In this document: positions 6,964-52,277 of the stretch, piece by piece
Position numbering within the stretch: the first letter of the stretch is position 1
How the letters are laid out: each line of letters starts with the position of its first letter
Origin: Solirubrobacter pauli
GTDB lineage: Bacteria; Actinomycetota; Thermoleophilia; Solirubrobacterales; Solirubrobacteraceae
NCBI RefSeq assembly: GCF_003633755.1
Contig: NZ_RBIL01000001.1
Coordinates: forward strand, 2,713,426 to 2,777,425
Length of the DNA: 64,000 bases
Direction of reading: 5' to 3'
The notes under the pieces: generated by a model
What the model saw: the letters and a program-made list of their open reading frames with translations, nothing else
Told to the model about the DNA's origin: nothing
The model's database searches: none
Translations under genes and position numbers: made by a program

Positions 6964-8361
6964 GTGATTTCGTCGTTGCCGCTCCGGCGCCGGATGACCG
7001 TTGCGGTGGCGATCGCCGTCGCGGTGGCGGTCGCGCTGGCCGCGTTCGTCGCCTACCTGGCCGTGCGCGGGTCGTTGCGCGGTGAAGTCGACCGGGCGCT
7101 GGAGGAGCAGCGCGTCGTGCCGCCGCCGGGCGTCGCCCAGGGGCGCGGCGGCCCGTTCGGCCAGCGCTTCGGTCGCCTGCCAGCCCGCTTCGGCGGGGCG
7201 ACGCCGTTCATCCAGCTGATCGACGCGGGTGACGGCGTCGAGCTGCGGGGGCCGGAGCCGATCGCGATGCCCGTCGCGGAGCGTGCACGGGACGTCGCCG
7301 CGGGCGTCGCGGAGGCGTACTTCTCCGACGTGGACGTGCGCGGCACGCACACGCGCGTGCTCACCGTGCCCGTGGGCGACGGGGTGGCGGTCCAGTTCGG
7401 CCGGTCGCTCGAGCCGTCGGACTCGGTGCTGTCGCGGCTCCGGCTGATCCTGGTGCTGGTCGTGCTCGGCGGCGTGGCCCTGGCGGTCGCGCTGGGCCGG
7501 CTGGTCTCCCGCAACGTGGTCGCGCCGATCGCGGAGGTGAGCGACGCCGCCCGCCACATCGCCCAGACCGAGGATCTCGGCCGGCGGATCGAGGTCCAGA
7601 CCCACGACGAGGTCGGCGAGCTGGCCGAGCACTTCAACCAGATGCTCGACACGCTGGAGCGCTCGGTCGCGGCGCAGCGGCAGCTGGTCGCCGACGCCTC
7701 GCACGAGCTGCGCACGCCGATCACCTCCCTGCGCACCAACATCGAGGTCCTCGCCGAGTCCGAGGCCCTCCCGCCCGACGAGCGCGCGCAGCTGCTGGAG
7801 GACGTCGAGGCGCAGACGACCGAGCTCGGGATGCTCGTCGCCGACCTGATCGAGCTCGCCCGCGGCGACGAGCCCCGCCGCGAGAGCGAGGACGTCCGCC
7901 TCGACGCCCTCGTCAGCGAGGCCCTCACGCGCGCCCGCCGGCACGCGCCGGGCATCACCTTCGAGGCGCAGCTGGAGCCGGCCGTCCTCGACGGCACCCG
8001 CGAGCGCCTCGCCCGCGCGGTCAACAACCTCCTCGACAACGCGGCCAAGCACTCCCCACCAGGCGGCGTCGTCCACGTCACCGCCGGCCCCTCCGGTGTC
8101 CGCGTCCGCGACCACGGCACCGGCGTGCCCGACGAGGACCTCCCCCACCTGTTCGACCGCTTCTACCGCGGCGCGTCGTCCCGCGGTCGCCCGGGCTCGG
8201 GTCTCGGCCTCGCCATCGTCCGCCAGGTCGCCGAGCAGCACGGCGGCACCGTCCGCGCCACCAACGCGCCGGAAGGCGGAGCCGAGTTCACCCTCGAGCT
8301 CCCGGCCACCACCCCGACGGGCGAAGTCGAGCCGACGACGCCCTCGTTGTGGCGTCAATAA
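6964..8361 (+). CDS. Sensor histidine kinase (MprB-like)
   Basis: 465 residues from a GTG. TM1 (about 12-34), an extracytoplasmic segment of about 120 residues, TM2 (about 158-180), HAMP, HisKA with the phosphorylated His in [12 protein letters not shown], and HATPase with [22 protein letters not shown] and GSGLGLAIV. It phosphorylates the regulator encoded just upstream. Its TAA stop is the first three bases of a palindromic repeat that borders a RAYT transposase element. Target genes are probably htrA and other envelope-stress genes, by analogy with mycobacterial MprAB. Confidence 0.92.
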
Positions 8362-43836: not shown

Positions 43837-46641
43837 GTGCACGCGCCACAGCTGCTGGAACGTGAGGAGGACCTGGCCGAGCTCGAGCGGGCGCTGGCCC
43901 GTGCGCGCGCGGGCACGGGGCAGGCGATCGCCGTCGAGGGCCCGGGCGGGATCGGCAAGACGAGCCTGCTCGCCGCGGCCCGCGCGCACGGTCGCGACGC
44001 GGACATGCTCGTGCTGCACGCGCGCGGCTCCGAGCTCGAGCGCGCGTTCCCGTTCGGCGTCGTGCGGCAGCTGTTCGAGCCGACGCTCGCGCGGACCGGC
44101 GAGCTGCCGTTCGCGGGAGCGGCGCACCTCGCCAAGCCGATCTTCGACGTCGCCGAGGGCAGCGAGGAGTCCTCTTACGCACGTCTGCACGGGCTCTACT
44201 GGCTGTGCGCCAACCTCGCCGCCGAGCAGCCGCTGGTGGTGTGCGTCGACGACGCCCAGTGGGCCGACGAGCCGAGCCTGAGCTTCCTCGGCTTCCTGCT
44301 GCGCCGCCTGGAGGACCTGCCGGTCGCGCTGCTCGTCGGCACCCGTCCGCGCGCCGAGCAGGAGTCCGACGTGCTGCGCGCGCTCGTCACCGACCCGGTC
44401 ACACGCGTGCTCCGGCCGACCGCGCTGAGTGGCGACGCGGTCCGCGAATGGGTCCGTGGCGCGGTCGACGGGCAGGCCGCCGACGGCTTCTGCCGCGCCT
44501 GCCATGAGACCACCGGCGGCAACCCGTTCCTGGTCCGCGAGCTGCTGCACGAGGTCGTCCACAAGCGCCTGAAGGCCACCGACGCCGAGGCCGCGACCGT
44601 CCGCGCGCTCGGCCCGGAGGCGATCTCCACCGTCGTCCTCCAGCGCCTGAAGCGCCTGCCGTCGTCCGCGCCCGCGATGGCGCAGGCGATCGCGATCCTC
44701 GGCGAGGGCGCCCGCCCCACCACCGCCGCGCAGCTCGCCGAGCTGGACCCGATCACCGCCGAGCAGGCCCTGGACGCCCTCTGCCGCGCCGACGTGCTCA
44801 CCCGCGACGAGGACGACCGGCTCGGCTTCGTGCACCCGATCGTGCTGTCGGCGATCTACCACGACCTCCCCGTGCACGTCCGCGCGCAGGGCCACCACCG
44901 CGCCGCGCGCCTGCTCGCCGACCGCGGCGCCGCGCCGGAGGAGGTCGCCTCCCACCTCGCGCTGACGCCGCCGCGCGAGGACGCGTGGGCCGCCGAGGCG
45001 CTCCGCGCGGCCGCCGCCCGCGCGCTCGTGCTCGGCGACCCCGCCACCGCCGTGGCGTCCTTGCAGCGCGCGCTCGAGGAGCCTCCGCCGCCGGAGGCGC
45101 GCGCGGCGGTGCTGACCGAGCTGGCCCGCGCCGAGGCCCAGTCGGGCCGGCCCGCCGCCGTTGAGCACTTCCGCGCGGCCATGGAGCTCGCGTCCGACGC
45201 CCAGCAGCGCGGGCAGATCGCGCTCGGCCTCGCCCGCGCGCTCAAGTTCCGCGGCGATTCCCCGGACGCCATCGAGGTGCTGCGCCACGCCCTCGCCGAG
45301 GTCGAGCCGGGGCCGCTGGCGGAGGAGCTCGAGCTCGAGCTGGTCGCCTCGGCCTACATCTCGCTGGCCGCACGGCCGCTGCTGGCCGAGGAGATCGCGC
45401 GGATCGAGGCGCCCGACGCGCCGCACACCGTGCTGGACCGGCTCCACCTGATGGCGAGCGCGTTCGAGACCGTGATCGCCGCCGGCCCGTACGAGCGCTC
45501 CGCCGAGCTCGCGCGGCTCGCGCTCGGCCCCGAGCAGCCGACCGACGTGAGCGCCGGCGGCCACGTGTTCATCACCGCGACGACGGCGCTGATGTTCTCC
45601 GAGCGCTACGACGAGGCCGAGCGTGCGTACGACCGCGCCGTCTCGGACGCGCGCCGGCGCGGCTCCAGCGTCGGGTTCGCGAACGCCTCCAGCCTGCGCT
45701 CGCTGCTGCACTACCGGCGCGGGAACCTGTCCGAGGCGGAGGCCGACGCCACCGCCGCGCTCGACCTGCGCAACGACGTCCAGGGCTCGCAGGGCTACCT
45801 CGCGTGCGCGCTCAACGCGCTCGTCTTCGCCCGCCTCGAGCGCGGGGAGGCCGACCAGGAGCTGCTCGCGCTCGCCGAGGACTTCTTCGCGAACCAGCCC
45901 ACCGAGGACCTGCCGTACAGCCAGGCGATCCACGCGCGCGGCTGGCTGAAGGCGCGGCTCGGGGACGCGGAGGGCGGGCTGGAGGAGCTCCTCGCCTGCG
46001 GTGAGCGCGAGCAGCGCTGGGGCGTCGGGACGCCCCAGATCATCGCCTGGCGCTCGAGCGCCGCGGAGGTCTGCCTCACGCTCGGCCGACTGGAGGAAGG
46101 GCGCGCGCTCGCGGCCGAGGAGCTGCGGCTCGCGCGCCAGATCGGGGCGCCGCGCGCGATCGGCGTCGGCCTGCGCGTGGCCGCGCTGGCCGAGGCGGGC
46201 GAGCGCCGGGTCGAGCTGCTGGCCGAGGCGGTCGAGGCCCTGGAGCGCAGCGAGGCCGCGCTCGAGCTCGCCCGCGCCCAGATCGACCTCGGTCGCGCCC
46301 TCGTGCGCGCCGGGCGCCGCGAGCCCGCCCGCGAGCGGCTGCGCGCCGGGCAGGAGGGCGCGTTCCGCTGCGGCGCAAGCCTGCTCGTCGAACGCGCGCA
46401 CCGCGAGCTGCTGGCGACCGGCGCGCGTCCGCGCCGCAACGCGGCCGCGAGCCGCGACGAGCTGACGCCCAGCGAGCGCCGCGTCACGCAGATGGCGGCG
46501 GAGGGCCTGACCAACCGCGAGATCGCCCAGTCGCTGTTCGTCACGGAGAAGACGGTCGAGACACATCTGGGCCGCGCGTTCGTCAAGCTCGGCGTCCGCT
46601 CGCGCAAGCAGCTCGCCGACGCGTTGGCGGACGTCGCCTGA
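43837..46641 (+). CDS. Large ATP-binding LuxR-family regulator (LAL)
   Basis: 934 residues from a GTG. An AAA/STAND-type ATPase lies at the N terminus (Walker A EGPGGIGKTSLLAAA near 34-48, Walker B LVVCVDDAQWADEPSL near 133), followed by a long helical TPR-like region (about 370-860) and a LuxR HTH (about 876-930, LTPSERRVTQMAAEGLTNRE and TVETHLGRAFVKLGVRSR). Such regulators bind a ligand through the TPR region. The next two genes (small protein, MFS permease) follow without a gap, so they may be regulated or co-transcribed. Confidence 0.9.
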   Translation: MHAPQLLEREEDLAELERALARARAGTGQAIAVEGPGGIGKTSLLAAARAHGRDADMLVLHARGSELERAFPFGVVRQLFEPTLARTGELPFAGAAHLAKPIFDVAEGSEESSYARLHGLYWLCANLAAEQPLVVCVDDAQWADEPSLSFLGFLLRRLEDLPVALLVGTRPRAEQESDVLRALVTDPVTRVLRPTALSGDAVREWVRGAVDGQAADGFCRACHETTGGNPFLVRELLHEVVHKRLKATDAEAATVRALGPEAISTVVLQRLKRLPSSAPAMAQAIAILGEGARPTTAAQLAELDPITAEQALDALCRADVLTRDEDDRLGFVHPIVLSAIYHDLPVHVRAQGHHRAARLLADRGAAPEEVASHLALTPPREDAWAAEALRAAAARALVLGDPATAVASLQRALEEPPPPEARAAVLTELARAEAQSGRPAAVEHFRAAMELASDAQQRGQIALGLARALKFRGDSPDAIEVLRHALAEVEPGPLAEELELELVASAYISLAARPLLAEEIARIEAPDAPHTVLDRLHLMASAFETVIAAGPYERSAELARLALGPEQPTDVSAGGHVFITATTALMFSERYDEAERAYDRAVSDARRRGSSVGFANASSLRSLLHYRRGNLSEAEADATAALDLRNDVQGSQGYLACALNALVFARLERGEADQELLALAEDFFANQPTEDLPYSQAIHARGWLKARLGDAEGGLEELLACGEREQRWGVGTPQIIAWRSSAAEVCLTLGRLEEGRALAAEELRLARQIGAPRAIGVGLRVAALAEAGERRVELLAEAVEALERSEAALELARAQIDLGRALVRAGRREPARERLRAGQEGAFRCGASLLVERAHRELLATGARPRRNAAASRDELTPSERRVTQMAAEGLTNREIAQSLFVTEKTVETHLGRAFVKLGVRSRKQLADALADVA

Positions 46642-46902: not shown

Positions 46903-48026
46903 CGTTCCGGCGCGACCGGCTGACGTGGGTCGCGTACGCGCTGCTGGCCTGGTTCGCCTATCTGCAGGCCGCGCCCGGGCTGGTCGTCCCGTACCTGCGT
47001 GACGAGCTCGACATCGGCTACACGACCGGCGGCCTGCACGTGGCCGCGTTCGCGACGGGCAGCGTCCTCGCGGGCCTGACGGCGGCGCGGATCGAGGCCG
47101 CCGCCGGCCGCCGGGCGCTGCTGTGGGGCTCGGCGGCGGTCATGGCGGTCGGGGCGACGGGGCTGGTCGCCGGGCACGTCGCGGCGGTCACGGTCGGCGC
47201 GCTGTTCGTCGCGGGCTACGGCGGCGGGCTGCTGCTGACCACGGTGCAGGCCACGCTCGCCGACCACCACGGGGAGCAGCGTGCGATCGCCCTGACCGAG
47301 GCGAACGTCTTCGCGAGCGCCGCCTACCTGGTGTTGGTCGCGGCGGTCGCGCTGGTGAGTTGGCGCGCGGCGCTGATCGCGAGCTTCGCCGTGCCCCTGG
47401 CGCTGTTCCTCGCCAACCGCCACGTGCCGATCACGGGCGCCCCGCCGGCGGCGGCGACCGAGGGCCGGCTGCCGCGCGCGTTCCCGGTCGCGATGGCGAT
47501 GCTGTTCTGCGCGGTCGCCGCCGAGTGGTGCGTCACGTCCTGGGGGGCGAGCTTCGCCAGGGAGGCCGCGGACGTGTCGGCCGACACGGCGGTGGCGCTG
47601 ATGTTCGGCTACTTCGGCGGCGTGTTCGCCGGCCGCGCGACCGCCAGCCGGCTCGCGCGCCGCCACGCGCCGCAGCGGCTGCTCGCGCTGGCGTTGGCGA
47701 TCGCGGCCGTCGGCTTCGCGGTCCTGTGGCCCGCCACGAGCCCGGTGCAGGTGCTCGCCGGGCTCGCGGTCATCGGCCTGGGGCTGGGCAACCTGTTCCC
47801 GTTCGCGCTCGCGGTGACCGTGGCGCTCGCGCCCGACCGCGCCCAGCTCGCGTCGAGCCGCGCCGTCCTCGCGGGGTCGAGCGCGGTGCTGATCGCGCCG
47901 CTGACGATCGGCGCGCTCGCCGACGCGACGAGCATCACGGGCGCGCTGCTCGTCGTGCCGGTGACGCTCGCGCTCGCCACGATCGGGCTCGTGGCGACTA
48001 CTCCACGAGGTCGAAGCCGCCGCTGA
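46899..48026 (+). CDS. MFS transporter
   Basis: 375 residues from GTG 46899. About 12 TM segments, with two halves joined by a cytoplasmic loop (GAPPAAATEGRLPRA) and short basic A-loop-like turns (RIEAAAGRRALL, RLARRHAPQRLL). Substrate not evident; sugar/drug MFS subfamilies fit. Coupled to the small SH3-like protein gene. The last 29 bp overlap the convergent Clp-like gene. Confidence 0.85.
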   Translation: MTFRRDRLTWVAYALLAWFAYLQAAPGLVVPYLRDELDIGYTTGGLHVAAFATGSVLAGLTAARIEAAAGRRALLWGSAAVMAVGATGLVAGHVAAVTVGALFVAGYGGGLLLTTVQATLADHHGEQRAIALTEANVFASAAYLVLVAAVALVSWRAALIASFAVPLALFLANRHVPITGAPPAAATEGRLPRAFPVAMAMLFCAVAAEWCVTSWGASFAREAADVSADTAVALMFGYFGGVFAGRATASRLARRHAPQRLLALALAIAAVGFAVLWPATSPVQVLAGLAVIGLGLGNLFPFALAVTVALAPDRAQLASSRAVLAGSSAVLIAPLTIGALADATSITGALLVVPVTLALATIGLVATTPRGRSRR

Positions 48027-50970
48027 GGACGGCGTCGAGGCGGCCGGTCCGCCAGCCGCGCACGGCGTCGCGGACGAGCGGCGTCGGGCGCTCGCGGTAG
48101 CGGCGGACGATCGTCGCCCGCCCCGCCGCGGGCTCCTCGGCGCCCTCGGCGGTGACGCTCACGCGGACGCGCCGCCGGTCGTAGCCGCCACGGCCGTCCG
48201 GCACCTCCAGCACGTGCAGGCCGTCCTCGGGCGCGAGCGTGCGCAGGGCGGCGAAGCCGCTCACGGCGGCCACCCAGCGGTACTTGCGGCCGGGCTTCTC
48301 CTCCACCACGTCCAACCGCATGCCGCGCTCGTGCGCCCAGGCGCGGTACATCTCCGCGACGCGCGGGCCGAACTCCGGGTCGCCGTCCACGCGCAGCCGT
48401 GCGTCGGCGGGCTCGCCCGCGGCGAGCGCGTCCAGCGCCTCGCCGAGCAGCAGCAACCGCTGCGCGGCCCGGCGGACGATCGCCTCGGGCGGCCGGCGGG
48501 CGCTGCGCACGCGGTTGAGCAGCGACTCGGCCGAGCGCAGGCCGGACTCCATGCGGTCGCGCAGCTCGATGCCGGCGAGCACCACCTGCCGGCCGTCGTC
48601 GTCCCAGAAGCCCGGCTCGGCCATCTCGGCCAGCAGCGCCGCCTTGGTCGCCGCCTCCGCCTCCACCCGCGCGCTCACGTCCGCGAACGCGGCCTCCAGC
48701 AGCTCGCGCCCGGCGCCGCCCTCCCGTGCGAGCGTCTTCAGCGTCGTCTCGGCGGGCGTGGGCGCGACGTCCTCGGCGGCGTCCGGGTCCTCGAACGTGA
48801 CCTTGAGCCCGTCGCGGCCGGCGCGCACGAACAGGAACTGGTCGCCGCCGGGCACGTCGTGGCCGGCGATCGCGAGCGCGAGCGGCGTCAGGAAGTGGCG
48901 CTCGACCGCACGCTTGAGCGGCCGCGCGCCGAGGTCCGGCGTAAAGCCCTCCGCCAGCAGGAACTCCAGCGCCGAGTCGTCGAACTCCACCGCCCACTGG
49001 CGCGAGCGCAGGCCGCGGCGCGCCAGCACCGACTCCAGCTCCGCCGCCAGGATCTCCCGCATCACGGGCCGGGAGAGCGGCCGGAACACGACGGTCCGGT
49101 CGATCCGGTTCACGAACTCGCGCCGGAACGTCCTGGTCACCGCCTGCTCGACGCTGCGGGCCGCGAAGCCGTCGCGCGCGGGGGAGAAGCCGATGCCGGC
49201 GCCGGTCGGGATCGTCGCCCCGAGGTTCGAGGTCATGACGATCACGGCGTGGCGGAAGTCGGCGGGCTCGCCGCGCGGGTCGCTCAGCCGGCCGTCGTCG
49301 AAGACCTGCAGGAACACGTCGAAGACGCCCGGGTCGGCCTTCTCGAACTCGTCGAGCAGCACGACCGAGAACGGCTGCTTGCGGATCGACGCGACCAGCG
49401 ACGCGTCCTCGGGCTCGCCCGTGCCCAGCAGCCGCGCGGCGCTGCCGGGGTTCTGGTACTCGGACAGGTCGATCCGGATCATCCGGTCGCCGCTGCCGAA
49501 CAGGTACTCCGCGAGCGCCTTGGCGATCTCGGTCTTGCCCGTGCCGGTCGGGCCGACGAACAGCAGCACCGCGAGCGGGCGCGTCGGGTCGGTCAGCCCG
49601 GCCTTGAGCAGCGCGATCCGCTCGACCATCAGCTCGACCGCCTCCGGCTGGCCGACCACGCGCGCGCCGAAGAACCGCCGCAGCGCGTCGACGTCGAGCC
49701 GCGAGCGCTCGTCGAGCATCGTCAGCGGCATCCCGGAGCGCTCGGCGACGCTCTCCAGCACGTCGTTGACGCCGTAGTCGTCACCCACGCGCCGGCGCGT
49801 GGCGTCGAGCAGCGATAGGACCGAGCCGGGCAGAGCGCCCGGCAGGAAGTGGCGGGCGAGCGCGAGCGCCTCGTCGGCCACGGCGGCGTCAGGCGCCACG
49901 GCGCGGGCCAGCCCGCGCGCCGCGTCCTCGCTCGCGGGTGTGACGCGGACCGGCTCGAACGCGCCGCGGATGGCGGGGCGCTCGCGCAGCAGCCGCTCGT
50001 AGCTCGCGGGGTCGAGCTCGCCCGCGATGTGCAGCTTCGCCGTCTCCAGCGCCCGCAGGACCATGTCCAGCACGCCGGTGCGGCTGTAGCGGTGCGTGCC
50101 CGTCCACAGCAGCTCCTCGAAGTGCGGCACGATCCACAGCACGGGCTTGTCGTCGAGCGCGCGGACGATGTCCTGCAGGCGGCCCTCGAGCTCGCCGATG
50201 TAGCTCTGCCCCGCGTTGATCTCGCTCGCGCCCGCCTCGAACACCGACCAGCCGTGCGCGGCCAGCCGCGCGCCGAGCGCGTGCAGGCGCGTCGTGCGGC
50301 CCGTGCCGGGCTCGCCGATCACGAGCGACGGGCGCGCCGCGGCGACCGCACCTTCGAGCGCGTCGACGTCGGCGCTGAACGCCGCGTCCGGGACGGCGCC
50401 GGCGGCGAGCGCCCGCGCGGTCTCGTCGCGGAACACGCGGCCGATCCCGCCGAGGCGGCCGGCCACCTCACGCGCCTGGACCCGTCGCTCGAGGTCGGCG
50501 CCGACCGACGGCGGGAGCGCGTCGCCGAGCTTGCGCACGAGCGTCACGAGCTCGTCGAGCCGGCTGTCGGGCACGTCGCCGAGCCAGACCACCTCGCCGC
50601 GCCGCCGCACGAGCGCCTCCAGGTCGGCGAACGGGGCCTTCAGCCAGCCGTCGCCCGCCGCCGCGAGCACCCGCTGGACGAGCCCGTCGCCGACGCGCCG
50701 GTCCAGCGCGCGCAGCAGGAAGCTCGCGAACGCGCCGCGGGCCGCCGGCACCAGCAGCAGCAGCGTGCCCTCGTCCCCGTCGCGGGACGCGAGCGCTTCC
50801 AGGGCGACGCACGCGGTCATCCGGTCCCCGCGCACGAGCGCGAGCAGGTCCTCGTCCGGCGCGGCCGCCAGCCGCCGGACGGCTTCCTGGAACGTCGGGT
50901 TCTGAAGGAGCGCCGCGGCGCTGCGCTCGGCCTTCGGCAGCGCACGCAGCTCCGCGATCAGCTCGTTCAC
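47998..50970 (-). CDS. ClpA/ClpB-like double AAA+ ATPase fused to a GGQ-less release-factor-like domain
   Basis: 990 residues from GTG 50970. Residues 1-190 are helical and not a normal Clp N domain. D1 (about 200-400) has Walker A GEPGTGRT with Arg225 in place of Lys, a weak Walker B (VLWIVPHFEE) and a pore-loop-like SYIGELEGRL. D2 (about 430-640) is intact: GPTGTGKT, VVLLDEFEKADP, VIVMTSNLG, but the aromatic GYVG pore loop is replaced by GTGEPEDA. A ClpB-type small domain follows (to about 725). Residues about 755-990 resemble RF1/RF2: AEPGFWDDDG, VAEMYRAWAHERGM, DGLHVLEVPDGRG, then a C-terminal RRYRERPTPLVRDAVRG...DAVLSGGFD, with the GGQ domain missing. Coupled to the M20 gene by GTGA. Confidence 0.85.
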   Translation of the reverse strand: MNELIAELRALPKAERSAAALLQNPTFQEAVRRLAAAPDEDLLALVRGDRMTACVALEALASRDGDEGTLLLLVPAARGAFASFLLRALDRRVGDGLVQRVLAAAGDGWLKAPFADLEALVRRRGEVVWLGDVPDSRLDELVTLVRKLGDALPPSVGADLERRVQAREVAGRLGGIGRVFRDETARALAAGAVPDAAFSADVDALEGAVAAARPSLVIGEPGTGRTTRLHALGARLAAHGWSVFEAGASEINAGQSYIGELEGRLQDIVRALDDKPVLWIVPHFEELLWTGTHRYSRTGVLDMVLRALETAKLHIAGELDPASYERLLRERPAIRGAFEPVRVTPASEDAARGLARAVAPDAAVADEALALARHFLPGALPGSVLSLLDATRRRVGDDYGVNDVLESVAERSGMPLTMLDERSRLDVDALRRFFGARVVGQPEAVELMVERIALLKAGLTDPTRPLAVLLFVGPTGTGKTEIAKALAEYLFGSGDRMIRIDLSEYQNPGSAARLLGTGEPEDASLVASIRKQPFSVVLLDEFEKADPGVFDVFLQVFDDGRLSDPRGEPADFRHAVIVMTSNLGATIPTGAGIGFSPARDGFAARSVEQAVTRTFRREFVNRIDRTVVFRPLSRPVMREILAAELESVLARRGLRSRQWAVEFDDSALEFLLAEGFTPDLGARPLKRAVERHFLTPLALAIAGHDVPGGDQFLFVRAGRDGLKVTFEDPDAAEDVAPTPAETTLKTLAREGGAGRELLEAAFADVSARVEAEAATKAALLAEMAEPGFWDDDGRQVVLAGIELRDRMESGLRSAESLLNRVRSARRPPEAIVRRAAQRLLLLGEALDALAAGEPADARLRVDGDPEFGPRVAEMYRAWAHERGMRLDVVEEKPGRKYRWVAAVSGFAALRTLAPEDGLHVLEVPDGRGGYDRRRVRVSVTAEGAEEPAAGRATIVRRYRERPTPLVRDAVRGWRTGRLDAVLSGGFDLVE

Positions 50971-52277
50971 TTGAGCGCGCCGAGCTCCTCGTAGAGCGCC
51001 CGCGCCGCGGCCGCGCCCTGCTCGAGCGCGACGAGCCGGTAGGACTCGTTGGGCGCGTGCAGCGCGTCGTCGGGCAGGCTGAAGCCCGACAGGATCACCG
51101 GGATGCCACGCGCCGCGAAGTCGGCCAGGACAGGGATCGAGCCGCCCGAGCGGACGAGCGTCGGCGCGCGGCCGAACGCCTTCTCGAACGCGCGGGCCGC
51201 GGCCTGCAGCGCCGGGCTCTCCGGGTCGGACGCGCTCGGGCGCGCCCGGTCGGCGGAGAAGGTCAGCTCGGCGCCGTCCGGCAGCGCCTCGCGCAGGAGC
51301 CGCTCGAGGTTGGCCGCGATCTCGTCCGGGTCCTGGCCGCTGACGACCCGGACCGACAGGTCGGCCTCGGCGACCGGCACGACGATCGTGCGCGCCTGCC
51401 CGCCGCTCACGCGGTGCACGTCGAGCGAGGGCTCGGCGGTCGTGCGCGTGTAGAACTCCGCCGCGGCGGTCGGATCGGCCGGCCGCGCGCCGACGCCCGC
51501 CAGCTCCGACGCGCCGTCGGGCAGCGTCGCCCACGCCTCCACCTCGGCTGCCGAGGGCGGTTGGACACCGGCGCGCAACGGCTCGGGCAGGCGGCCGTCG
51601 GCGCCCGGGAGCACGGCCGCGAGCGCGCGGTGCAGCGCGTGGAACGCGTTCAGCGCCGCGCCGCCGTAGAGGCCCGAGTGCGCGGTCTGCGTGCCCGTGC
51701 GCACCTCGACGTGGGCCATCACCATGCCGCGCGTGGCGACGGTGAGCGCCGGGCGGTCGGCGTCGACCATGCCCGAGTCGAACACGATCGCGACGTCGGC
51801 GCCGCGGGCGTCCTGGCGGACCCACTCGCCGACGTCGTCGGAGCCGGTCTCCTCCGCGCCCTCGATCAGCACGCGGATGTGGACGGGCAGCTGACCCGCC
51901 TTGCCCAGCTCGCACGCGACGTGCAGCAGCGGCAGGAAGTTGCCCTTGTCGTCGGTCGCGCCGCGGGCGTAGATGCGGCCGTCACGGATGGTCGGCTCGA
52001 ACGGGGGCGAGTCCCACAGCTCCGGGTCGCCCGGGTCCTGGACGTCGTAGTGGCCGTAGATGAGGACGGTCGGCGCATTCTTCTTCGCCGAGCGCAGCTC
52101 GCCGACCACGAGCGGCGCGCCGCCCGGCGTGTCGACCATCTCCGCGGTGCCGCCCGCGCGGCGGACACGCTGGATCGCCCACGCGGCCGCGTGACGCAGC
52201 GCCTCTTCGTCGCGGGCGCCGGCCGAGATCGACGGGATGCGCAGCCAGTCGAGCGTCTCCTCGAGCAGGTCACCCAC
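50967..52277 (-). CDS. M20-family dipeptidase/deacylase
   Basis: 436 residues from GTG 52277. Metal ligands and catalytic acids appear in IYGHYDVQDPG, GATDDKGNFLPLL, EGAEETGSDD, FDSGM and a dimerisation domain in the middle (about 190-340). Such enzymes cleave dipeptides or N-acyl amino acids. Its start overlaps the carboxylase gene by 8 bp and its stop overlaps the Clp-like gene (GTGA), so the three are one operon. Confidence 0.9.
   Translation of the reverse strand: MGDLLEETLDWLRIPSISAGARDEEALRHAAAWAIQRVRRAGGTAEMVDTPGGAPLVVGELRSAKKNAPTVLIYGHYDVQDPGDPELWDSPPFEPTIRDGRIYARGATDDKGNFLPLLHVACELGKAGQLPVHIRVLIEGAEETGSDDVGEWVRQDARGADVAIVFDSGMVDADRPALTVATRGMVMAHVEVRTGTQTAHSGLYGGAALNAFHALHRALAAVLPGADGRLPEPLRAGVQPPSAAEVEAWATLPDGASELAGVGARPADPTAAAEFYTRTTAEPSLDVHRVSGGQARTIVVPVAEADLSVRVVSGQDPDEIAANLERLLREALPDGAELTFSADRARPSASDPESPALQAAARAFEKAFGRAPTLVRSGGSIPVLADFAARGIPVILSGFSLPDDALHAPNESYRLVALEQGAAAARALYEELGALK

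Follow-up and report, generated by a model that had tools for sequence, protein, structure and literature searches.

A Clp-like AAA+ ATPase of Solirubrobacter pauli with a predicted C-terminal pseudo-release factor 2 arm, an apparently undescribed kind of fusion

Clp/Hsp100-type AAA+ ATPases and bacterial release factors (RFs) are the closest described systems for the two parts of P0001, the predicted product of one gene in a 64,000-nucleotide stretch (the window) of the genome of the soil bacterium Solirubrobacter pauli. By sequence profile and predicted fold, the C-terminal ~240 residues of P0001 are homologous to RF2 (PrfB), comprising domain 1 and superdomain 2/4, and they lie behind a Clp-like ATPase in the same polypeptide. 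No description of a Clp-RF2 architecture was found in the literature searched, which covers few subscription-only papers or preprints, and a domain database might list it uncommented; this suggests that Clp-like ATPases with a pseudo-RF2 arm are an apparently undescribed kind of fusion. The initial annotation had placed both parts in a single gene at 47998 to 50970, and one open frame was confirmed there. The gene and the parts of its product are as follows.

47998..50970, minus strand: whole gene for P0001, Clp-like AAA+ ATPase carrying a pseudo-RF2 module at its C terminus (open frame, translation; start codon predicted)
50371..50970, minus strand: N-terminal domain (residues 1-200), modeled as helical and evolving fastest of all parts (Pfam, model, substitution ratios)
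49771..50370, minus strand: D1 AAA+ module, residues 201-400 (motif table)
48838..49770, minus strand: D2 AAA+ module and D2-small, residues 401-711 (Pfam AAA_2 and ClpB_D2-small; motif table)
49381..49434, minus strand: D2 pore loop region, residues 513-530, without GYVG (motif table; own-genome controls with GYVG)
49186..49194, minus strand: IGF tripeptide, residues 593-595, at the ClpP-docking loop position (sequence; model of low confidence nearby)
48718..48837, minus strand: linker, residues 712-751, with a low-confidence stretch at 732-741 (model)
48415..48717, minus strand: RF2-like domain 1, three-helix bundle, residues 752-852, RF2-type FW at 788-789 (model, alignment)
48001..48414, minus strand: RF2-like codon-recognition superdomain 2/4 (residues 853-990), lacking both SPF and the alpha-5 GG tip (alignment, fold)
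48097..48159, minus strand: residues 938-958, around the junction where RF domain 3 (GGQ) is missing (alignment to the genome's own PrfB)

P0001 resembles ClpC and ClpA in having two AAA+ modules, intact D2 motifs and, in the loop that follows sensor 1, an IGF-type tripeptide, but its D1 Walker B and D2 GYVG are lost. The distance between its Walker A motifs is 254 residues, compared with 337 in L136, 305 in L138 and 400 in the ClpB protein L137 of the same genome; the name ClpC-like for L136 and the class of L138 are our own, as both score below every curated NCBIfam cut-off. From the GARP motif to the C terminus, P0001 has 310 residues, including the extra RF2-like module, versus 87 in the ClpC/ClpA comparison and 49 to 87 across L136, L137, L138 and L139 (a ClpB of genome G002). 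No Clp_N domain, which L136 carries, was listed among the best 25 of the 33 Pfam families matching P0001 at E ≤ 1, nor was anything past residue 711; the matches included AAA_2 (residues 464 to 625; 1e−38) and ClpB_D2-small (632 to 711; 9e−14), while D1 was weakly matched by AAA_22/AAA_30 and the ClpA model aligned to residues 216 to 700. NCBIfam models for ClpB, ClpA, and similar proteins matched far below their curated cut-offs. ClpB scored best, on D2, with 280.4 bits against an equivalog cut-off of 1232.1, which L137 (1274.8 bits) and L139 both pass. ClpI has been described as a third Clp class in Actinomycetota, with or without an LGF motif, and with intact ATPase modules and an M-domain (PMC10149685, excerpts), whereas P0001 has lost the D1 Walker B and its Walker A spacing leaves little room for an M-domain. 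In the available portions of that paper, a term search for release factors, Solirubrobacter, and Thermoleophilia gave nothing. Canonical ClpB, ClpC, or ClpI identity was ruled out by bit scores, motifs, Walker A spacing, and the missing GYVG.

The tail resembles RF2 in domain 1 and superdomain 2/4, in both sequence and fold, but has no GGQ domain, SPF, or alpha-5 GG tip and is fused behind an ATPase. PrfH/RFH and ArfB are RF paralogues repurposed from ordinary termination; those proteins keep the catalytic Gln and RFH has no domain 1, whereas P0001 keeps domain 1 and loses domain 3 (PMC6514570). Balon, a GGQ-less homologue of aeRF1, holds the ribosomal A site without mRNA and without a decoding motif (PMC10901736, excerpts). 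P0001 is like it in having an RF-like part without decoding and GGQ motifs; however, Balon belongs to the aeRF1 family and is not fused to an ATPase. An AAA+ unfoldase and an RF-like protein also act in ribosome quality control as Cdc48-Vms1 (PMC6514570, excerpts), an analogy of working only, as these are two eukaryotic proteins with an aeRF1-type domain. The RF survey of Burroughs and Aravind gives RF1, RF2, ArfB, and prfH as bacterial RFs, with no Clp/AAA+ fusion in the parts covered (PMC6514570). Release factors go unmentioned, by term search, in the available portions of a survey of nucleoside triphosphate-dependent conflict systems (PMC7159879), and Clp proteases appear in the accessible parts of a rescue review only as degraders of tagged chains (PMC8012679).

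When searched alone, the C-terminal 256 residues of P0001 gave no matches to Pfam, NCBIfam, or PDB sequences, and relatives were therefore needed to build profiles. The first profile, A1, was made from 11 tails, those of P0001 and ten of twelve relatives (L011 and L017, with broken tails, were omitted). Against PDB sequences, A1 matched 41 chains at E ≤ 0.01, all 41 of them RF2 or RF1 (best E value, 7e−41), in alignments that span nearly the whole tail and show the GGQ domain as a gap. As a control against the most RF2-like members driving this result, profile A2 was restricted to P0001, L003, L004, and L005. Its best match was still RF2 (5e−15), and 39 of its 41 rows were RF1/RF2; ribosomal protein L33 accounted for the remaining two, at E values of 0.03 to 0.05. 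Using hhalign, A1 aligned with the S. pauli PrfB at a probability of 99.2 over 278 columns and with PrfA at 98.1 over 184 columns. The Pfam family PCRF was matched by all 11 A1 members at E ≤ 1, although the P0001 tail scored 16.2 bits against a cut-off of 24 and would thus go unreported at Pfam's threshold; the cut-off was passed by four of five A1-type tails tested (L032, L006, L042, and L018, not L004) and by none of three tails from Planctomycetes/Verrucomicrobia.

The fold prediction pointed the same way. AlphaFold2 run on A1 modeled residues 730 to 990 with a mean predicted local distance difference test score (pLDDT) of 86 and a predicted template modeling score (pTM) of 0.82, and all 47 PDB matches that Foldseek returned for this model at E ≤ 0.001 belonged to the RF1/RF2 family, mitochondrial members included. 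A second structure aligner superposed the model on Escherichia coli RF2 (1gqe) with a Z score of 18.9 and a root-mean-square deviation of 3.9 over 237 residues, covering domains 1 and 2/4. The next fold match was PrfH (Z, ∼10); designed three-helix bundles matched domain 1 alone (Z, ∼12), and the specific signal therefore lies in domain 2/4 and in the sequence. In a tree of tails, RF2, and RF1, the three split apart, the tails not being nested inside RF2. PHROGs gave nothing for the P0001 tail, and the tail of L032 matched one phage family of unknown function (2e−19). The initial annotation had read the last ∼235 residues as RF1/RF2-like and proposed a comparison with PrfA and PrfB; both the profiles and the predicted structure bear this out.

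To locate what had been lost and kept, residues were compared across the 11 tails, nine RF2, and nine RF1, all RFs coming from fusion-bearing genomes (RF2 L118 and the own-genome duplicates L123/L131 were omitted), and numbered in the extracted frame of the S. pauli PrfB, which is not a deposited protein. The Gln of GGQ was present in 0 of 11 tails, with any residue in that column in only three, and domain 3 is absent from P0001. The P and F of SPF were likewise found in none (a Ser aligned in four), and the alpha-5 tip glycines at columns 150 and 151 were kept in one tail and none, respectively. The GG/GP motif, the anticodon motif, and GGQ are the functional motifs named for class-I RFs (PMC1586002, excerpts). 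With SPF and the alpha-5 GG tip lost, stop-codon reading is not expected, and with the GGQ stretch missing, neither is peptidyl-tRNA hydrolysis, as had been proposed from the P0001 sequence at the outset; an active release factor was excluded on the loss of all three. The letters GGQ do occur in three of 46 tails of at least 150 residues, twice at the tail start and once (L028), outside any RF context, in a strand that follows the H-R motif. L006, L032, and L042 hold ∼70 to 90 residues (by eye) in place of domain 3, again without GGQ, which looks like an intermediate stage. Twelve residues were kept in all 11 tails (F61, W62, W168, G198, E208, G210, H212, V233, R337, Y339, D349, and G365), and three of these, F61, W62, and W168, are specific to RF2, being found in none of the nine RF1. 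Two separate RF frames besides the fusion were identified in 10 of 11 fusion-bearing genomes; in G484 only the fusion was found.

Within the ATPase, D2 has a complete set of motifs, with Walker A GPTGTGKT (residues 473 to 480), Walker B VVLLDEFEKAD (536 to 546), sensor 1, Arg finger, and sensor 2. D1 carries GEPGTGRT as Walker A (219 to 226; Lys replaced by Arg), and its Walker B, VLWIVPHFEELL, has no DE, whereas class 1 Clp/Hsp100 proteins have both Walker B motifs intact. The D1 pore loop AGQSYIGELEG (253 to 263, with SYIGELEG at 256 to 263) keeps Tyr257. GYVG is absent from D2 (513 to 530) but present in three Clp proteins of the same genome, so that aromatic loops in both rings were not found. 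All motifs quoted in the initial annotation were present as stated. The full-length AlphaFold model had a mean pLDDT of 79.5 and a pTM of 0.56, with low confidence in the linker (732 to 741) and on both sides of IGF (588 to 593 and 596 to 600). In the same genome, the ClpP-docking loop reads LGF in L136 and IGF in L138 and has no such tripeptide in the ClpB L137. Loops of the IGF/LGF type dock ClpX and ClpA onto ClpP (PMC9035409, excerpts), and ClpP was present in all 11 fusion-bearing genomes searched. Among the fusion relatives, the tripeptide is IGF in L003 and L032, LGF in L005 and L042, VGF in L004 and L010, FGF in L017, and IGL in L011. PHROGs matched the ATPase part to a phage 'ATP-dependent protease' family (4e−119).

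Of 108 aligned rows, 12 kept GYVG and look canonical; the remaining rows grouping with P0001 have intact D2 motifs, a D2 loop without GYVG, and a D1 Walker B without DE. In tailed A1-type members the D2 Walker B reads DEFEKAD. P0001, L003 to L006, L008, L010, L014, and L018 retain the D1 pore Tyr; L011 and L017 have Phe instead, and in L032 and L042 the residue is unrecognizable.

We tentatively favor, at somewhat short of an even chance, P0001 as a Clp/Hsp100-type AAA+ unfoldase, possibly a ClpP partner, that its pseudo-RF2 arm would recruit to ribosomes or translation factors. By sequence and model, one polypeptide combines a D2 with complete ATPase motifs, a D1 without a catalytic Walker B but with the pore-loop Tyr, and a selectively maintained arm with the RF2 domain 1 and 2/4 fold, from which decoding and hydrolysis motifs have been removed. 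The protein would form a hexameric ring powered by D2, and the IGF loop would dock this ring on ClpP. On its flexible linker, the arm could place the motor at the periphery of the ribosomal A site and the L11/L12 region, the site of RF domain 1, which reviewers' remarks connect with L11 and L7/L12 (PMC1586002, excerpts). Alternatively, the arm may bind factors that recognize RF2, in either case independently of a stop codon. The motor would then extract or degrade a protein at that site, stalled or hibernating ribosomes being possible examples. In support, the 12 scaffold residues are kept in 11 of 11 tails while the alpha-5 GG, SPF, and GGQ are lost, and Balon provides a precedent for occupying an A site without mRNA (PMC10901736, excerpts). 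Further support comes from the RF2 homology, the complete D2 motifs, the dN/dS of the RF module (near that of D2 in the comparison with L003), the placement of IGF at the docking loop, ClpP in all 11 fusion-bearing genomes searched, and the separate RF frames kept in 10 of 11. Ribosome binding by the arm is a prediction, and the ribosome- or translation-directed remodeling role first suggested for the protein is plausible. Should the arm bind ribosomes, it would mark a route of energy-driven ribosome remodeling or proteolysis in bacteria outside the model organisms, which annotation by score threshold misses, since the arm scores under the Pfam cut-off in the S. pauli genome. The arm would, moreover, clearly exemplify an RF that has lost decoding and catalysis and is retained for targeting.

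The same residues bear on the main rival, in which the RF2 fold was captured purely as a structural or protein-interaction module (for ring cohesion, client or adaptor binding, or subunit positioning) with no ribosome contact, a substantial possibility although less than probable. All three ribosome-active motifs are lost, as such a role would allow, and core folding alone could explain many of the kept residues. Against it, the RF2 scaffold and its invariant residues are kept across six phyla (by label), which suggests a conserved target surface, and domains 1 and 2/4 are both retained. Balon suggests a further alternative, a hibernation or protection factor whose arm fills empty A sites while the ATPase loads or ejects it. 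Balon, also a GGQ-less and decoding-less RF relative, occupies A sites, and the motif loss in the arm parallels the absence of NIKS and GGQ in Balon (PMC10901736, excerpts). However, the aeRF1 family to which Balon belongs is unrelated, the few annotated neighbors included no hibernation gene, and an AAA+ ring would be an unusual partner for a passive plug; we consider this alternative quite unlikely.

Substitution patterns suggest purifying selection on the RF module and faster drift of the N-terminal domain and D1. Ratios of nonsynonymous to synonymous substitution (dN/dS), which are crude counting estimates on GC-rich genes, were 0.57 (N-terminal domain), 0.42 (D1), 0.10 (D2), 0.16 (RF domain 1), and 0.11 (RF domain 2/4) between P0001 and L003, and 0.49, 0.58, 0.11, 0.28, and 0.29 between P0001 and the copy in G001. 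A decaying or chimeric gene without function might account for the degenerate D1, an RF module without active motifs, and a tail-only remnant in genome G023, but it is hardly credible given the low dN/dS of D2 and the RF module in these comparisons, the intact frames in several species, and the same architecture on unrelated contigs. A pseudogene was ruled out by the low ratios of D2 and the RF module.

Among 101 relatives, the full-length fusion was identified in five of seven genomes of the genus (its own included), and elsewhere in the family there was one partial copy, at a contig end in G032. L003 and G004/G483 are apparently the same assembly and G001/G006 have near-identical scores, leaving fewer independent cases than five. 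The best match to P0001 in other genomes was no better than 9e−69, the level of other Clp proteins. Across 396 Actinomycetota genomes (five candidates scored in each), the fusion was found at E ≤ 1e−36 only in its own genome, the three other matches being frames of 362 to 437 residues. In L003/L084, L085/L086, and L087, the fusion has the same neighbors, with M20 peptidase and biotin carboxylase genes upstream and a major facilitator superfamily (MFS) gene downstream. In G003 (L227, 1641 to 4716), a LuxR-type regulator gene (91% identical to that at window positions 43837 to 46641) comes directly after the M20 peptidase gene (88% identical), and no match to the fusion or the MFS gene lies between the two; this site represents a clean gain or loss within the genus. 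G023 carries a lone RF-like piece without ATPase (L229, 1400 to 2047) that is 44% identical to P0001 residues 805 to 989 and is probably a remnant. The patchy distribution, together with the grouping with Planctomycetota/Verrucomicrobia described below, suggests that the fusion may have been transferred horizontally.

Patchiness would also fit a conflict or defense effector that attacks ribosomes, an alternative raised by the initial annotation: the fusion is in five of seven genus genomes with one partial family copy and the tail-only piece of G023, and it is cleanly absent beside the same peptidase gene in G003. This role is nevertheless very unlikely. The fusion is a single gene with the same neighbors wherever present in the genus, and D2 and the RF module appear to be under purifying selection in the comparisons with L003 and G001. 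PADLOC matches (DolB, PDC-M37B, and mad8) all fall within P0001 residues 426 to 584, confined to the AAA+ part. Among the matches listed, no tail was found at E ≤ 0.01 in the 80 viral Clp-like loci that were best by ATPase similarity, which also ruled out a phage origin of the fusion.

The initial annotation had proposed a search for the same architecture in other genomes, and several phyla were found to carry it. Six peptide patterns were used to scan genome contigs, and 80 of 95 relatives were kept; absence elsewhere means little under this design. The same tail (A1, E < 1e−50) lies behind the ATPase in 12 of the 80 loci (L003 to L006, L008, L010, L011, L014, L017, L018, L032, and L042), with weaker matches in L026 (3e−7) and L039 (0.002). 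These include metagenome-assembled genomes (MAGs) labeled, by record title, as Planctomycetota, Verrucomicrobiia, Armatimonadetes, Chloroflexi, and Deltaproteobacteria, making six phyla by label. In a FastTree phylogeny of D2, P0001 and L003 grouped with L004 (a Planctomycetota MAG) and L005 (a Verrucomicrobiia MAG) with support of 1.0, adjoining proteins of Myxococcota/Proteobacteria that have no tail (0.89). Beside these stood the members from Chloroflexi, Armatimonadetes, and Deltaproteobacteria MAGs (0.78), and the Verrucomicrobia/Planctomycetes paralogues formed three further groups. Support for the whole assemblage was 0.997 with L046 and 0.50 without this sequence, which keeps GYVG. The simplest reading of the tree would be an ancestral RF2-derived tail that was lost in some branches.

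Three adjacent family genes were identified in 12 of the 80 loci (L027, L028, L030, L033, L035 to L039, L041, L043, and L045; for example, L038 1 to 7596 and L041 1814 to 11057), and probably also in L012 and L047. The latter two (L012 205 to 8616 and L047 1596 to 9894) are from Thermoguttaceae MAGs and encode long tails. Many Verrucomicrobia/Planctomycetes loci have diverged RF2-like tails on two of three tandem Clp-like paralogues; third genes (three measured) end 22 to 37 residues beyond the D2-end reference point. Profile A3 was built from 14 first-gene tails (some from loci with a single family gene; L034, with a cut tail, was omitted) and A4 from 12 second-gene tails. Against PDB sequences, 32 of 55 A3 rows were RF2/RF1, including all rows at E < 0.01 (best, 6.5e−7), and seven of eight A4 rows were RF2 (best, 9e−5). 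Alignment to A1 gave hhalign probabilities of 98.1 for A3 and 93.4 for A4, and alignment to a single PrfB was weak (25.6 and 4.7); these tails are called RF2-like only from the PDB profile matches and the comparison with A1.

Such triplets are possibly hetero-oligomeric machines. They also lend weight to a purely structural use of the RF2 fold, since the paralogue tails, seemingly of hetero-oligomer subunits, are strongly diverged or unrecognizable, and the 12 loci with three adjacent family genes have these in separate paralogue groups. A broader proposal, which we hold to be doubtful, extends the ribosome-recruited unfoldase to the whole multi-phylum Clp-like group, whose members, with an ancestral RF2-derived arm, would be AAA+ unfoldases docked on ribosomes or proteases linked to ClpP, as homomers in Solirubrobacter/Chloroflexi and hetero-oligomers in Verrucomicrobia/Planctomycetes. 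The group would then be a bacterial counterpart of Cdc48-Vms1 that dismantles proteins on ribosomes that are stalled or hibernating, with neither a stop codon nor peptide hydrolysis involved. If the arm does bind ribosomes, this would be a first lead on the tandem Clp-like paralogues of Planctomycetes/Verrucomicrobia.

Several observations weigh against recruitment of a ClpP-linked unfoldase to ribosomes. The residues known to contact the stop codon are gone from the arm. Because the tailed members have a D2 without GYVG, classical threading through D2 is doubtful. The putative docking tripeptide is RGF in two Anaerolineae MAGs (L014 and L018), PGF in an Ardenticatenia MAG (L008), and IGI in an Armatimonadetes MAG (L006). 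The arm follows D2-small, on the face where ClpP would dock, and the two functions might compete. In the comparison with the more distant G005, the contrast in dN/dS was weak (0.94, 0.63, 0.34, 0.64, and 0.46 for the N-terminal domain, D1, D2, RF domain 1, and RF domain 2/4). Tails of the Verrucomicrobia/Planctomycetes paralogues are strongly diverged, and the four paralogue tails of L012 and L047 match none of A1, A3, and A4, even with the threshold relaxed to E ≤ 10. A partial look at ten annotated neighbor genes of five tailed loci revealed no conserved partner beside tailed members. The gene rsmG (GidB, confirmed by Pfam), for a 16S rRNA methyltransferase, is the next gene downstream, in the same orientation, in five of 12 tail-less Myxococcota/Proteobacteria loci (L016, at 7524 to 8339, L009, L015, L021, and L022); of the other seven, L031 ends inside the ATPase gene. 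This linkage speaks for a ribosomal role as a weak hint at the decoding center, but it is limited to tail-less relatives and may reflect the synteny of a single lineage.

The P0001 frame comprises 990 uninterrupted codons and a stop at 47998 to 48000. With a single open frame, two genes or a frameshift between the ATPase and RF-like parts, which the initial annotation had named as a possible refutation, were ruled out. Upstream of the GTG at 50970, the frame remains open to ∼51981, within the M20 peptidase gene. In congeners, full-length matches first align within residues 1 to 3, which makes this GTG the probable start; it overlaps the stop of the peptidase gene by four bases. The upstream neighbor is as follows.

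50967..52277, minus strand: M20 peptidase gene, overlapping by four bases, a conserved neighbor in the genus (frame, genus loci)

Window positions 43837 to 46641 hold a large AAA_16/LuxR-type regulator gene, a neighbor of the fusion locus in the genus. By eye, N-terminal hydrophobic stretches like membrane anchors were seen in L004 (4454 to 7924) and L005 (near 5950), the nearest relatives from other phyla, not in P0001. A further tail-less Clp-like group with an altered D1 was identified mostly in Patescibacteria MAGs (most of L044, L048 to L053, L055 to L059, L062 to L070, L073, L074, and L076 to L081), and in five of its loci (L044, L048, L049, L052, and L066) a Clp gene with GYVG is adjacent.

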